The notes under the pieces were generated by a model. It was not told the DNA's origin. It did no database searches and worked only from the letters and a program-made list of their open reading frames with translations. A stretch of 64,000 nucleotides of DNA from an uncultured Treponema sp. (lineage in GTDB: Bacteria > Spirochaetota > Spirochaetia > Treponematales > Treponemataceae), in contig CAMOIE010000001.1 in the NCBI GenBank assembly GCA_946615905.1, forward strand, positions 108,318 through 172,317, in the 5' to 3' direction. The translations under genes were made by a program, and so were the position numbers. Below, piece after piece: positions 28,071 through 34,836 of the stretch (its first letter is position 1; every line of letters starts with the position of its first letter).

Positions 28071-28981
28071 AAAAGTCAATGATAAAAATCGCCATCGGAA
28101 TTTTCGCTTTCTCTTTTATTTCCTGTGGAACTACAAAAGTTCTGTCAACAGTTTTGGAAACTACTGCAGAAGTCGCCAAGGCTCAGGGAAATGATGAGGT
28201 CGCAGCTATTGCTTCTGCCGGAGCAAAAACTTCTGCTGCTGTGGATTCGGCCCTAGAAGAAATCACTCCTGAAAACGAGTATTACATCGGCCGATCTGTC
28301 GCCGCCACTATTCTAACGAACTATAAAACTTATGAGTCTGCCGCCCTTGAAAAATATCTAAATGAAATCTGCGGAATCCTAGTTGCGAATTCTGATGCGG
28401 CGGAAATGTTCAACGGCTACCATGTGAAAATGCTCGATTCAAAGGAAGTGAATGCCTTTTCAACTTCCGGCGGGCATATCTTGGTGACGCGGGGACTGAT
28501 TGAATGTTCTGCTTCCGAGGATGAGCTTGCTGCGGTAATTGCCCATGAAATCGCCCATGTCCAGTTAAAGCACAGCTTAAAGGCTATAAAAACTAGCCGG
28601 TGGAAGAATGCCGGACTTGCCGGAGCGAATGCTGCCCTCACAGCCGTTTCTGGTGCTAAGGCGGCGGAAGCCCTTGACAATATGGTTGGTGACGTAATCA
28701 CGCAGATGGTGAACACTGGTTATTCGAAATCTCAGGAATACGATGCGGATAGCCTTGCCCTTACCCTGATGTCGGACGCTGGATACAATCCTTCCGCAAT
28801 GAAATCTATGCTCAACCGCATGGAATCTGCCCAAAACACAAAGGGCGGCTTCTTTAAAACCCATCCGACTCCGGCCCAGAGAATCGCCAACGTGAACAAA
28901 GAGGTCGAAAAGATTTCTCTTCCCGCTGACACTTCTGCCAGCCGCAAAAGCCGGTTTGCAAAAGTTTCCGGGGCATTATGA
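28067..28981 (+). CDS. M48-family metalloprotease lipoprotein
   Basis: 304 residues. Lipoprotein signal with FISC (Cys20). The peptidase domain (about 70-285) has HEIAHVQLKH (zinc ligands His160 and His164, catalytic Glu161) and the third ligand Glu224 in SQEYDADSLAL. THPTPAQRIAN near the end is the usual M48 closing motif. Relatives such as BepA and LoiP degrade or help fold outer-membrane proteins on the periplasmic side. There is no TPR domain. It overlaps both neighbours by four bases (ATGA), so protease, SH3 protein and cyclase should be made in fixed ratio. Confidence 0.9.
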   Translation: MKKSMIKIAIGIFAFSFISCGTTKVLSTVLETTAEVAKAQGNDEVAAIASAGAKTSAAVDSALEEITPENEYYIGRSVAATILTNYKTYESAALEKYLNEICGILVANSDAAEMFNGYHVKMLDSKEVNAFSTSGGHILVTRGLIECSASEDELAAVIAHEIAHVQLKHSLKAIKTSRWKNAGLAGANAALTAVSGAKAAEALDNMVGDVITQMVNTGYSKSQEYDADSLALTLMSDAGYNPSAMKSMLNRMESAQNTKGGFFKTHPTPAQRIANVNKEVEKISLPADTSASRKSRFAKVSGAL

Positions 28982-31005
28982 AAAGCAGCAGATTGAACAA
29001 ACGCTCAGTTCAAATTTTGGTCACAAGTCTTGCGGTCGGACTTTTTGCCTGTCTTTTGCATTTTGCAGGGGCTTTTACCTGGCTTGAACATAAGTCCTAC
29101 GACAGCCGCACAAAATTTTCCGCTCATTTTCAAAATGTAAACGAAAAGGTCGGCCTTATTTTGATTGACCAGCAGAGCCTTGACTGGGCGAAAAAAGAAA
29201 GAGGCTGGGGCTGGCCTTGGCCTCGTCAGGCTTATGCTGAAATCACGGATTTCTGCCGTCTCGGCAATGTTTCTTCCCTGGCCTTTGATATGGTCTTTTC
29301 TGAGGATTCTGTTTACGGCCCTGCCGATGACGAGTCTTTTGCCGCCGCTTCCCGCGAATACGGAAAAGTCATCCAGACCGTTTATTACGACTCCAACGGG
29401 AATAAGGTCCTGCCCGTTCCGAGTCTTGAAAAATCCGCCGCTTTGATTGCGAACGTGACTTCAACTTTGGACAACGATGGAATCGCCCGCCGTTCCTTTT
29501 TTTATTCAAAAGAAAATTCAAATGAAGCGGGAATGGCCGCCGCAAGCCTGAAAGTCAGCGGTGAAAAATCAGATTTTTCAGAAATTCCTGCTGCCGAAGA
29601 TGGCGGAATGTACATCCGCTACCTGCCTTCGATGGACTCCTTTTTTCCATATAACGCCGAGCAGATTTTGCGCAGCTACGAGGCATTAAAGTCTGGAAAG
29701 TCAGATGAGTCACTTTTAAAGCCTGAGGACTTTCAGGGAATGCATTTGTTCCTCGGTGTCTATGCCCCCGGACTTTTTGATATTTGCTCAACGCCGATTT
29801 CCGCGACCGCTCCTGGAATTGGAGTTCATGCCAGTCAGCTCAACACAATCCTGAACGGCAACTTTTTGCAGGATTTTCCCGCCGGACTTGTGATTGCCTT
29901 TACAATTCTTTTTGCTCTTTTGGGAAGCGTCTTAGGACTCGCTTTCACAAAGGGCTTTATGTCGTCGATAATCCGCCGTGTGATTCTTTTTCTCCTGCTG
30001 ATTACCGGCTACATGATTTTTACTTACGTAATGTTCAACGCGGGAACGATAATGCCAGTCTCAGCCCCGGCTTTTGCAATAACGCTTTCATTCGTGGCTG
30101 CGATTTCTGTGAATTACGTCACGGAAGGAGCGCAAAAACGCTATTTGAAAGCCGCTTTCAGCCAGTATTTAAGCCCGACCGTAATCAATAATCTGATTGA
30201 AAATCCAGGGCTTTTAAAGCTTGGCGGCGAAAAGCGTGAAATCACGGCGTATTTTTCCGATGTTCAGGGTTTCACTACGATTTCCGAAGGTTTGGAGCCA
30301 GACGCCCTTACGGAACTTTTGAATATTTATCTTTCCGCCATGACGGACATAATCCTCGACTTTGGCGGAACAATCGACAAATACGAGGGCGACGCGATTA
30401 TCGCATTTTGGAACGCCCCGACTTATCAAAAAGACCACGCAAAGCGGGCATTGGAAGCGGCACTCGAATGTCAGAAAAAACTTCTTGAAATGCAGGAAGA
30501 GCTTGTCGCAAAAGCGGGCAAGCCTTTCAAGCAGAGAATCGGTTTGAACACGGGTTACGCGGTAATCGGAAACATGGGCTCACGGAAGCGTTTTGACTAC
30601 ACGATGCTGGGCGATACTGTGAACCTGGCCTCCCGCCTTGAGGGAATCAACAAGCAGTTCGGAACTTATACGATGTGTTCCGAGGCGACAAAAAATTCCG
30701 CGCTTGAAAACGGCTGCAAACTGGCTTTTCATGAAGTCGGAAATATCGCGGTTGTCGGACGAAAGGAAGGTGTCCGCGTTTATAATCCGATGGACGTGCA
30801 GGAATTTGAGAATTCAAAAAATCTTCTGGAGCCTTTCGACCGTGCCTACGGATTGTTCACAAAAGGTGATTTTTCCGCAGCCCGCGAGATTTTTGTCGCA
30901 AATGCGAATTTTTCGCCCTGCGAAAAATATATTGAAAAATGCGACAAACTGATAAAAAATCCGCCTGCAAATTGGGACGGTGTTATCCGTGCGACAGAAA
31001 AATAG
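28978..31005 (+). CDS. CHASE2-domain adenylate/guanylate cyclase (class III)
   Basis: 675 residues. TM1 (11-32) is followed by a periplasmic CHASE2 sensor (about 38-298, with WGWPWPRQAYAEI and the LAFDMVFSE motif). Three TM segments follow (about 302-325, 334-352, 358-380), then the cyclase domain (415-600). Metal-binding Asp428 and Asp472, purine-site Lys468 and Asp546, and transition-state Asn549 and Arg553 are all present, so the enzyme should be active; Lys/Asp at the purine site favours ATP. A C-terminal TPR-like tail is present. It is operonic with an envelope protease, which suggests that cAMP is made in response to an envelope signal. Confidence 0.92.
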   Translation: MKSSRLNKRSVQILVTSLAVGLFACLLHFAGAFTWLEHKSYDSRTKFSAHFQNVNEKVGLILIDQQSLDWAKKERGWGWPWPRQAYAEITDFCRLGNVSSLAFDMVFSEDSVYGPADDESFAAASREYGKVIQTVYYDSNGNKVLPVPSLEKSAALIANVTSTLDNDGIARRSFFYSKENSNEAGMAAASLKVSGEKSDFSEIPAAEDGGMYIRYLPSMDSFFPYNAEQILRSYEALKSGKSDESLLKPEDFQGMHLFLGVYAPGLFDICSTPISATAPGIGVHASQLNTILNGNFLQDFPAGLVIAFTILFALLGSVLGLAFTKGFMSSIIRRVILFLLLITGYMIFTYVMFNAGTIMPVSAPAFAITLSFVAAISVNYVTEGAQKRYLKAAFSQYLSPTVINNLIENPGLLKLGGEKREITAYFSDVQGFTTISEGLEPDALTELLNIYLSAMTDIILDFGGTIDKYEGDAIIAFWNAPTYQKDHAKRALEAALECQKKLLEMQEELVAKAGKPFKQRIGLNTGYAVIGNMGSRKRFDYTMLGDTVNLASRLEGINKQFGTYTMCSEATKNSALENGCKLAFHEVGNIAVVGRKEGVRVYNPMDVQEFENSKNLLEPFDRAYGLFTKGDFSAAREIFVANANFSPCEKYIEKCDKLIKNPPANWDGVIRATEK

Positions 31006-31118: not shown

Positions 31119-33380
31119 CTATTGCATCATCCATTGGACGGTTTTCGCCGGAGTGATTCCGTAATACAAAAATCCGTACATGGCGGCCGCTGAGACCAAT
31201 TTTCTTCCGTATTCGCGGGTCTCAGAAAAGGGCAGGGTCTCCAAAAACAAATCCGGGGCAAAACCGGCCTTGCTCATAGACGCTCTTCCTGTTGTCGACC
31301 AGTCGTTGTAAGATGCCCTCAGCCAGCGGCGCACGTGGGTAAGCCCCGCGTTGTAGGCAAAAAGGGCCAGCAGCGGAGATTCTCCTGCCCTCTCAATCAA
31401 GTCCGCCAGATATTTTGCCCCCAGCCTGATGTTGTCCTGGGCATCGTATTCATCGTAAGAATTCATCTTTAATTTTCTTGCCGTGTCTTCCGCCGTTGTC
31501 GGCATGAGCTGGGTCAGTCCGATTGCCCCCGCAGAAGAGACGATGTTCGGGTCAAAAAAACTTTCGCTGCGAATCAAAGCGTAAAGGGCGTATTCCGGGA
31601 GATTGTTTTCATTTGCCGCCGAAGAAACTTCGGTCAAAAAAAGCCTTGGAAAATTCAGCTGCAAAAGGTCTGCCGGAATTTTTGAGTTGAAATTCGCCTT
31701 TGTCCAACCTGCGATTCTCAAACTCTGCACGGAATAAATATTTTCGTGTTCCCCGCATTCTTTTAAAAAGCGGCTCATGCGAATATTTGTGTCAAGCGAA
31801 AGATTCTTGCGGTTTTTAAGCCATTCAGAGTAAATCTTCTGCGGAAATCCAAAGGCGGCGTAGCCTTCAAGAAGTCGGCGGGCATCCGCGTCCTCTTCCT
31901 TTTTTTCGTCTGTTCCACCGGCAAGAAGAAAATCCTCAACGATTTTTTTGTCGGTAATGTTCAGCCGTTCGATTGCGCAGACTTTGTAATACAAATCGGC
32001 GTTCCCGTTCAAAACGCGGGTAAATGCCTCCACTGCCTGACGGGTTCTCAAGCCTTCGGAGCCTGTCGCAAGTCCGTCCTCAAGCAAACGGCCGGAAATA
32101 TATGCGAATTTGCAGGAAACTTCTTCGCTTGCTTTGCCGTCAATGGCCTTCCAAACCTTATAGAATTCCTGCCAGCTGTGGTTTGAAAGCAACAAAATCG
32201 AAAGCGATTCAAAAAAATCGTCAAAATAAGACTTGTCGCTGATTCTTGCGGAATATTTTTGCAATGTCGAAAGAATGTCGTCTGTCGAAGTCCTCAGCTC
32301 CATGTTCAGCAGATACCAAAGGCAGTTGTCGAATTTTTCAGGGTCAGTGGTGGCTTCCAGCGCGGACTCGAACCGTTTGATTGTCGTGTTTTGGTAGCGT
32401 CCGGCTTTGTCAAAAAGTCTTGCCGAATAAAACCATGCATAATAGGCGGCTTCTTTGTCGGAGACTTCGAGTTCTTTTGCCAGATTGTCGAACCTCGCGG
32501 CGGATGTGAAAAAATCATTTGTCCCGTAAAGGGCAGCTTTTCCCAAGTCAGAGAGAATTTGAAAGTCCAAGGGCTTTCCTGCGTTTTTGTAAAGGCCTAT
32601 TATTTCTTCCATATTATTGAAGGCCTGGACATAATCCTTGCGGAAAACCTTTATTCTGAATGCCATAATCAAATGCTCGTCAGTTACGGGCATTTCTTCC
32701 GCCGGCGGAGGGGCAAGTTCCGGCATCTGATTTGCATTTTCCGGCGTGAATTTTTTCTCAAGCTCTAAGGCTGCCTTTTTTTTGTTGAACTGTAGGAATT
32801 GTTTCTGCTGATTCTCAACGAATTTTTCCATTTTCCAAGAAAGGTAAAAATTGTAAAGTTCGCTGTGAAAATTTGAAATCGGGCGGCAGGTCATCCACTT
32901 GTAGAATTCTTTCTCAAAGCGGGAATCTTCCTTTTTTATCATGGAGTCCAGCCGCATTTTTACAAGTTTGTTCGGGGCTTGCTCCAAATCGAGCTTTTCT
33001 GTGATTTCTATGATTTTTGCGTATTCTTCCGCGTCTTTTAGGGTCTGGCAGGCAATCAAAAGCGCGTCATCATCGCCGTAATTTTTGGCCAGATAAAGGG
33101 CTGACTCGATTTTCTGACCGGCAGTTCCGACCAAAGTTAAATCTTCGGCGGCTCGGCGGGCTACAAGGGACGAGGACTTTGAGCGGGCGGCCAAAAGCAG
33201 GCGGAAGCTTTCGCTCTCGTCGCCTGAATCCGCAGCTTTCAAAGCCATAAAGTAGGGGGCGTCATTTTTATATTTTTTTTGACTGGCGTTGGCTTTTGTT
33301 CCCCCGCATGATGACAAAGCGAAGAGAAACAAAAAAGTCACCGGCAAAAACCGGTGAGCTGGTCGAGAAAAATTCATCAT
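31119..33380 (-). CDS. Soluble-lytic-transglycosylase-like lipoprotein (Slt family)
   Basis: 753 residues. Lipoprotein signal with LSSC (Cys25). A long alpha-superhelical region (about 35-560), like the U-shaped ring of Slt70, precedes the catalytic domain. Catalytic Glu606 lies in ALIRSESFFDP, followed by SSAGAIGLTQLMPTTA, NIRLGAKYL, LALFAYNAGLTHVRRW and ETLPFSETREYGRKL. The enzyme cleaves the MurNAc-GlcNAc bond with 1,6-anhydro ring formation. It directly follows the LysM gene (four bases apart) on the same strand, so both serve the cell wall. A Met-Met start; either could be used. Confidence 0.9.
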   Translation of the reverse strand: MMNFSRPAHRFLPVTFLFLFALSSCGGTKANASQKKYKNDAPYFMALKAADSGDESESFRLLLAARSKSSSLVARRAAEDLTLVGTAGQKIESALYLAKNYGDDDALLIACQTLKDAEEYAKIIEITEKLDLEQAPNKLVKMRLDSMIKKEDSRFEKEFYKWMTCRPISNFHSELYNFYLSWKMEKFVENQQKQFLQFNKKKAALELEKKFTPENANQMPELAPPPAEEMPVTDEHLIMAFRIKVFRKDYVQAFNNMEEIIGLYKNAGKPLDFQILSDLGKAALYGTNDFFTSAARFDNLAKELEVSDKEAAYYAWFYSARLFDKAGRYQNTTIKRFESALEATTDPEKFDNCLWYLLNMELRTSTDDILSTLQKYSARISDKSYFDDFFESLSILLLSNHSWQEFYKVWKAIDGKASEEVSCKFAYISGRLLEDGLATGSEGLRTRQAVEAFTRVLNGNADLYYKVCAIERLNITDKKIVEDFLLAGGTDEKKEEDADARRLLEGYAAFGFPQKIYSEWLKNRKNLSLDTNIRMSRFLKECGEHENIYSVQSLRIAGWTKANFNSKIPADLLQLNFPRLFLTEVSSAANENNLPEYALYALIRSESFFDPNIVSSAGAIGLTQLMPTTAEDTARKLKMNSYDEYDAQDNIRLGAKYLADLIERAGESPLLALFAYNAGLTHVRRWLRASYNDWSTTGRASMSKAGFAPDLFLETLPFSETREYGRKLVSAAAMYGFLYYGITPAKTVQWMMQ

Positions 33381-33384
33381 GAAA

Positions 33385-34836
33385 TCACTCTGCTGGAATT
33401 TTGATGTCTGTGCCGGAGATAATCAAATCTGGATTCTTGATATGATTGTAGGCGGCAAGTTTTTTATACTTCCACGGATTCTTATAGTAGGCTTCTGAAA
33501 TATCCCAAAGGGTGTCGCCCCAACGGATGTGGTATTTGATGTCGGCCTTTTTTACGGGAGCGGGTTTTGGTGGCTCTGGAACGACTTTTGGAGTCTCGGC
33601 GACAACGATTTTGTCCTCTTTAGCTTCGATTGGAGCAGGGGGAACTTCTTCTTTTTGCGGAGTGACATCGATTTCAATGTCCTGAGATGGAGTCGAATCT
33701 TCGGTTGCCGCGATTTCTGTGTTCTGCTCAATTTTCTGGTTGCGGGTGTTGCGGGACTTAATCAGGTTGTATTTTGACGGAACGACAAAGAGAATCAACA
33801 GAGTCGCGATTACACAGATGATTGCGCAGATTATGCAGATAATCATCGGAACGCGGGTTTTTCTCTCATCGTCTTCGCCGCCTTCGAGGGTTTCCTTGTC
33901 ATAAAGGTCTGAAAAATCCATCGCTGGGGAGGTCGCCGTCACGTTTGATGCCATTGAATCTGAATCAAGGCTGCTTGTGTCAAAAACGCTGTTGTCAAAT
34001 GATGAGTCGGAGCTTTCGGAAGAGCTTGTTGACTCTGTAAAAGCCGGATGGCTGTCAAAGTCGTCAAAAAGTCCGTCCAAATCGCTGGTGTCTGTTTCTG
34101 TCAAATTTTCGGAATTTACCTCTGTTAAATCTGATGAATCAGAGCTGCTTGTGTCATCAAAATCCGGCAGGGAAAAATCTGTGACTTCCAAGTTATCAGA
34201 GTCGTCTGTGTTGTCGGCAAGCGTTGTATCGCTTGCGGGCGCAGTGTCATCTGCCAAGGTCGTGTCGTCAAAAATCGATTCTGCCGGGTCAGGAAGATTC
34301 TCAGCTGAATCGGAAGAGTCTGCGATTGTCGCATCATCGTCAAAAATTCCTGCGGCGGGGTCTTTTGCAGGCTCGGCAAAGGTTTCGTCAGAAAGGTCGT
34401 CAAAACTGAAATCTTCGAGAGGATTTTTGTCGTCGAATTTTGTCTCTTCCTCTGAGGATTCTGCGTCAGCGATTGCGAAATTTGCCGGCTCGCTGCGTTC
34501 TTCCAATGTGCGGGAAACAAGGCTGACTTGTGTTCCGCTTTTTTTTCCGGTCTCAGGGTCAACTACTTCGGCGGTAAGCTGGTTGTTTTCGTCAATTCCG
34601 ACTGAAAGATTTAATTCCGGGTCTTCTGCAGGATGTTCCTTTAAATTTGAAATTTCCAAAGTGTCAACGTACTGGGCGTCGTCCATTGAATTTGATTCGG
34701 ATCGGTAAAGGTCAATTTGAACTTTTGTCTGGTTGTCTTTTACGGTTGTTAGGGCCAAGCGCCGTGTTTTTGGCGACCCTTCCTCAATTACCGGATAAAA
34801 AGTTCCGTCTGCGAGTTTAATTCCGATTGTTTTCAT
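33385..34836 (-). CDS. Single-pass LysM protein with N-terminal DnaK substrate-binding-like domain
   Basis: 483 residues. Residues 1-110 follow the beta-sandwich substrate-binding domain of DnaK: GIKLADGTFYPVIEEG, LTTVKDNQTKVQIDLYRSE, LEISNLKE, LNLSVGIDENNQLTAEV and DPETGKKSG line up with the order in Hsp70. A long Asp/Ser-rich acidic region (120-325), one TM helix (331-353), a Pro/Glu/Lys linker and a C-terminal LysM domain (434-482, YHIRWGDTLWDIS..) follow. The topology should put the DnaK-like domain in the cytoplasm and LysM on murein. There is no ATPase domain. First gene of an operon with the transglycosylase. GAGGGGA precedes the ATG. The function is unknown; a link between cytoplasmic clients and wall sites is possible. 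Confidence 0.82.
   Translation of the reverse strand: MKTIGIKLADGTFYPVIEEGSPKTRRLALTTVKDNQTKVQIDLYRSESNSMDDAQYVDTLEISNLKEHPAEDPELNLSVGIDENNQLTAEVVDPETGKKSGTQVSLVSRTLEERSEPANFAIADAESSEEETKFDDKNPLEDFSFDDLSDETFAEPAKDPAAGIFDDDATIADSSDSAENLPDPAESIFDDTTLADDTAPASDTTLADNTDDSDNLEVTDFSLPDFDDTSSSDSSDLTEVNSENLTETDTSDLDGLFDDFDSHPAFTESTSSSESSDSSFDNSVFDTSSLDSDSMASNVTATSPAMDFSDLYDKETLEGGEDDERKTRVPMIICIICAIICVIATLLILFVVPSKYNLIKSRNTRNQKIEQNTEIAATEDSTPSQDIEIDVTPQKEEVPPAPIEAKEDKIVVAETPKVVPEPPKPAPVKKADIKYHIRWGDTLWDISEAYYKNPWKYKKLAAYNHIKNPDLIISGTDIKIPAE

Follow-up and report, generated by a model that had tools for sequence, protein, structure and literature searches.

An Hsp70 substrate-binding domain joined across the membrane to LysM, encoded beside a flagellar transglycosylase, as a candidate docking hub in spirochaetes

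Within the window, a 64,000-nucleotide stretch of DNA from an uncultured Treponema sp., the minus strand carries a 483-aa open reading frame that begins with ATG and whose boundaries fall exactly at 33385..34836. From the reading frame, Pfam and a full-length AlphaFold model, we divide its product into an Hsp70 substrate-binding domain (SBD; SBDbeta), an acidic linker, a transmembrane (TM) helix and a LysM domain. The SBDbeta occupies residues 1-107 (34516..34836, minus) and comes without an ATPase domain, interdomain linker or helical lid, as judged from Pfam/NCBIfam, AF2, Foldseek/VIA and a residue comparison with DnaK. It is followed by a disordered, probably cytoplasmic linker at residues 116-327 (33856..34491, minus), which has 65 Asp/Glu versus 6 Lys/Arg in 212 residues and contains a conserved short motif, FxxLYD, at residues 306-317 (MDFSDLYDKETL; 33886..33921, minus). 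The full-length model and a topology comparison place a single TM helix at residues 328-351 (33784..33855, minus), and model and composition give a Pro-rich, disordered and presumably periplasmic linker at residues 352-430 (33547..33783, minus). The LysM domain at residues 435-481 (33394..33534, minus) is complete, matching Pfam profile positions 1-43 of 43 with an E of 8.6e-9 and with pLDDT >90 over most of its length. In the full-length model, residues 119 to ~325 are disordered, helix 328-351 stands alone, and a further disordered linker leads to the confidently predicted LysM. A first-pass annotation of this DNA had proposed an acidic stretch, a single TM helix and an outer LysM, and composition, model and Pfam agree with it on all three.

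By its family, LysM is expected to bind murein and to lie outside the cytoplasm, and the N-terminus is very probably cytoplasmic. The first-pass annotation had named an external N-terminus as the observation that would overturn its reading; we found no evidence for one, since the protein has no signal peptide, a long acidic region on the N-terminal side and a C-terminal LysM. Positive-inside counts favour the N-in topology outside the genus and are near-neutral within it, and we did not use them as proof.

The gene directly downstream (31119..33380, minus) encodes a 753-aa lytic transglycosylase of the BB0259 flagellar-assembly family, matching NF047373 over its full length (633.5 bits versus a cut-off of 234, E 6.1e-190) and Pfam SLT (E 1.4e-29), with a lipobox-like LSSC leader at its N-terminus. 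The stop codon of the SBD-LysM gene lies 4 nt ahead of the transglycosylase ATG, an arrangement consistent with a single transcript. A terminator-like hairpin of 8 pairs followed by CTTTTTT (33338-33357, minus) lies within the start of the transglycosylase gene that codes for the signal peptide, and it could attenuate the downstream gene. On the other side, a gene for a CHASE2 and adenylate/guanylate cyclase protein (28978-31005, plus) is convergent with the transglycosylase gene. In Borrelia burgdorferi, passage of the hook through murein requires the BB0259 transglycosylase, and the published model presumes that this enzyme is pre-localised at the wall (PMC8517470).

The Hsp70 assignment comes from both profile and fold comparisons. 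Residues 3-133 match positions 393-522 of the 599 in the Pfam HSP70 profile with an E of 2.5e-7, above the gathering cut-off, and phmmer with residues 1-120 retrieved the SBDs of solved Hsp70 structures (best E 1e-6). A match by chance or through low complexity was ruled out by the fold and by the orthologues of the genus, 38 of 40 of which match the DnaK model independently. For residues 1-115, AlphaFold was given an alignment of 50 family domains and returned the two-sheet fold with eight strands at a mean pLDDT of 88.9. The best Foldseek matches are Hsp70/DnaK SBDs, with E from 6.5e-9 and a query-normalised TM of 0.83-0.87 among the leading matches, and VIA also ranks Hsp70/DnaK SBDs first, with Z up to 16.6 over 110-114 residues. 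From these comparisons, we regard the Hsp70 SBD fold of residues 1-107 as practically certain. The protein is not a full Hsp70: the Pfam match starts only at profile position 393 and there is no ATPase domain, the interdomain linker is absent in 50 of 50 family domains, and the SBDbeta is followed not by a helical lid but by disorder from about residue 119. The first-pass annotation had thus correctly named an Hsp70 SBD without an ATPase domain, and the structure prediction it had suggested as a check against DnaK gave the two-sheet substrate fold. A third HSP70 match in the window's own genome is partial (G000:C3:177207-177503; profile positions 137-241, in a 354-aa frame).

We compared the 50 family domains with 17 spirochaete DnaK/Hsp70 domains and with those of E. 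coli and human, using established groove positions. The groove positions 401, 426, 427, 433, 436, 438 and 472 are kept in the family. By sequence conservation, the hydrophobic groove residues of Hsp70 are present: I401 is Ile in 44/50, F426 is replaced by Leu/Val in 48/50, I438 is Ile/Val/Leu in 49/50 and I472 is Ile/Leu/Val in all 50. S427 is Thr/Ser in 42/50, and Q433, found in 48/50, ranks first in conservation across the family SBD. Conservation is higher at groove positions than elsewhere in the domain (JS 0.565 versus 0.411, permutation p 1.5e-4), and the excess holds when the hydrophobic positions (p 0.003) or the polar positions (p 0.02) are taken alone. The coupling positions have gone the other way, with residues 417-418 deleted in 50/50, K414 changed to Glu/Asp in 42/50, P419 kept in only 14/50 and conservation at R445 and R467 lost. 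With the interdomain linker absent, 417-418 deleted, K414 reversed in charge and both arginines lost, coupling to an ATPase domain and lid is gone while the groove is still under constraint. Judging from this pattern of conservation, we think that the groove probably binds peptide. The SBD has a net charge of -6.4 versus -0.35 for DnaK, so its ligands would differ from those of DnaK.

The acidic tether contains one conserved element. An FxxLYD-like motif about 20-30 residues ahead of the TM helix is found in 89 of 98 long members versus a mean of 2.7 in shuffled linkers, and a GLYxK-like form occurs in 7 of 14 members of the order tested outside the genus.

Distribution was searched within Spirochaetota. 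A full-length search gave matches in 86 of 98 relatives, a count that may include LysM-only matches, and a narrower family alignment matches T. ruminis, T. zioleckii, T. berlinense, T. porcinum and T. bryantii. A search with the SBD found matches in other families and orders and in part of another class of the phylum, and the plan of SBD, linker, TM helix and LysM also occurs beyond the genus. The SBD gene is directly upstream of the transglycosylase gene at nearly all Treponema loci and at most of the loci read from the other families of the order; the pairing is also present in Borrelia and in a T. pallidum-like genome of 1.14 Mb, where the gene for a 310-aa orthologue is followed by the transglycosylase gene and then gidA. 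The phylogenetic spread of the fusion, which the first-pass annotation had asked about, is thus wide in Spirochaetia, and both fusion and gene pair are old.

A second form lacks LysM, ends shortly past the TM helix, and lies directly upstream of the transglycosylase gene in several class-level families. Because transglycosylase-adjacent members in Borrelia and several other families have no LysM, the family's conserved core does not include murein tethering. Genomes G210, G103, G311 and G336 carry both forms at separate loci (paralogue loci L082/L093, L085/L128, L089/L092 and L078/L079), and in the first three of these pairs the copy beside the transglycosylase gene is the one without LysM. 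The Borrelia gene upstream of the BB0259 homologue is a diverged member, as judged from a profile-profile comparison (E 4e-7 over 77 columns) together with synteny; Q433 is lost in it, and its domain profile gave no Hsp70 match among PDB sequences. About 3.4 kb from this SBD-TM gene is a gene for a 486-aa Hsp70 paralogue (L124:8792-10252) with an ATPase domain and SBDbeta and no space for a full lid, a possible relative or partner. A gene for a TPR protein of ~450 aa (L124:5516-6898; cluster c2, with homologues at L075, L079, L083 and others) adjoins the SBD gene, is mostly divergent to it in many families, and could be a functional partner. In genome G299 of family f16, a gene for a LysM protein, which by eye we take to resemble an M23 peptidase, occupies the SBD gene's empty place upstream of the transglycosylase gene (L126:4151-5017). 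A T. pallidum interactome link for TP0046-TP0048 was dropped because we judged these to be different genes. Literature searches on TP0042/TP0043, BB0260 and Treponema LysM plus DnaK returned nothing relevant, and we found no description of the SBD-LysM family in the papers searched.

No family member was detected in two lineages that have no flagella. FliG is absent from all 26 genomes of a Sphaerochaetaceae-like family, f13 (20 listed by name and 6 inferred from the tally), and all 21 of these that were searched with the family profile give true DnaK only. FliG is also absent from eight genomes of family f3, two of which show only spurious matches at E~1e-4, and here the family profile finds DnaK-type frames and no member. 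Seven of these eight f3 genomes retain the transglycosylase. In flagellated relatives, the SBD gene follows a methyltransferase gene; at the six f3 loci that we read, the methyltransferase and transglycosylase genes are still neighbours and the SBD gene alone is gone. In the transglycosylase tree, f3 is nested with flagellated genomes (fork support 89/80), and since its sister families also carry the SBD gene, the absence from f3 is best read as a loss. The flagellum losses would represent about two independent events. The SBD gene is retained at the same locus without the transglycosylase at L076, L079, L088, L091 and L246. FliG is present and no member was detected in G037, G079, G082, G299, G347, G240 and G290, which means that the gene is not strictly required, or is too diverged, or is missing from these assemblies. 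A search for FlhF matched SRP GTPases as well. From these distributions, we consider it quite likely that the family has a flagellar role.

What the domain does with its groove could be read in two other ways. The fold may have been taken over purely as a module for structure or protein-protein contact, with a groove that no longer binds peptide; lid, linker and allosteric residues are indeed lost, arch residue M404 is mostly Ala in the family, and the domain is far more acidic than that of DnaK. We nevertheless find this unlikely, because the groove is conserved above the remainder of the domain, also within the polar and hydrophobic subsets separately, and human Hsp70 (HSPA1A) has Ala at the 404 position too. 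Alternatively, the groove might be filled by the protein itself, with the linker's LYD motif docked there until a partner displaces it. DnaK SBD constructs bind their own tail, in entries such as 1bpr, and the motif is strongly conserved within an otherwise unconserved linker, but its pLDDT of only ~50 in the full-length model gives no sign of docking on the SBD, and motif and SBD are both acidic. We conclude that such docking is very improbable and unsupported by the model, which makes it likely that the LYD motif has a separate partner.

Two further explanations concern the process that the protein serves. It could be a membrane-tethered holdase for the neighbouring lipoprotein transglycosylase, with the SBD holding the signal region until export and LysM bringing the mature enzyme to murein. 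Short hydrophobic stretches are typical ligands of DnaK-type grooves, and the genes are spaced by 4 nt and deeply conserved as neighbours, but the SBD gene persists in f10, f11 and f18, where no transglycosylase was found, and is lost in f3 though the transglycosylase stays, so we rate this as quite unlikely. It could also be a scaffold for cell shape or cell division, whose loss accompanied that of helical shape and not that of flagella as such. We assume that both flagellum-less lineages may have lost helical shape too, in which case the link could be to shape and not to flagella; LysM and the transglycosylase are wall functions, and the wider locus holds genes that by eye we take to be uppP-like, ftsK-like and mnmG/rsmG-like. 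Against this, f3 keeps the other wall gene of the locus and loses only the SBD gene, and the partner transglycosylase has been characterised in Borrelia as a flagellar enzyme (PMC8517470). A shape or division scaffold is thus not a likely explanation.

The explanation that we prefer makes the SBD-LysM protein a docking hub of the periplasmic flagellum of spirochaetes that spans the envelope, and we see its chances as evenly balanced. The first-pass annotation's idea that the chain ties a cytoplasmic client-binding site to murein is plausible. As a mechanism, for which we hold only tentative confidence, the protein would act as hub and anchor: the groove, needing no ATP, would keep a constitutive grip on an extended hydrophobic segment of a cytoplasmic-side partner, LysM would hold murein across the membrane, and the tether with its conserved LYD motif would recruit a further partner. 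In this way, a cytoplasmic flagellar or positioning component would be kept at the point in the murein at which the transglycosylase makes an opening for the hook. In its most specific form, which we offer more tentatively still, an ATP-independent, membrane-anchored Hsp70 groove would take hold of a flagellar or positioning protein in the cytoplasm, and the link from LysM to murein would mark the wall-opening site as a spirochaete-specific polar hub. If the docking-hub reading is right, the protein is a concrete candidate for flagellum placement and transglycosylase pre-positioning in spirochaetes, and a rare case of an Hsp70 substrate domain that serves as a stable docking module with no ATPase to drive it. 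Its relatives in Treponema, in the T. pallidum-like genome and, more distantly, in Borrelia bring it to organisms where deletion and cryo-ET are feasible.

Among known systems, the SBDbeta of Hsp70/DnaK shares with this protein its eight-stranded fold from end to end (Z 16.6) and the conserved peptide groove, whereas the domain described here is membrane-anchored, has decayed coupling residues and carries a mean net charge of about -6. The BB0259 flagellar lytic transglycosylase of Borrelia (PMC8517470) gives its NCBIfam family to the downstream gene and is thus related to the partner, not to the SBD-LysM protein. SflA of Vibrio (PMC7226244), compared by domain plan, also has a single TM helix, a cytoplasmic chaperone-family domain and a link to polar flagellation, but it combines a J domain with periplasmic TPR/SLR where our protein has an Hsp70 SBD and LysM. 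The proteobacterial polar hubs HubP and FimV have a periplasmic LysM, a TM helix, an acidic cytoplasmic region and a terminal client domain (PMC12918733, PMC7226244). The protein described here shares with them LysM, one TM helix, a long, acidic, disordered cytoplasmic region, a terminal cytoplasmic client-binding domain and the flagellar context, with acidic residues making up 31% of its linker versus 25% of the P. putida FimV cytoplasmic region. The parts stand in reversed order, with a C-terminal LysM, no signal peptide and an Hsp70 SBD replacing the FimV TPR domain. The C-terminal FimV TPR domain (TIGR03504) has no match in the protein, which for this reason is not a HubP/FimV member, and no match to the FimV_Cterm model exceeded the cut-off in 11 spirochaete genomes. 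In the docking-hub reading, the SBD-LysM protein would work like HubP/FimV, but with its parts in the opposite order and an Hsp70 groove standing in for the TPR client domain.
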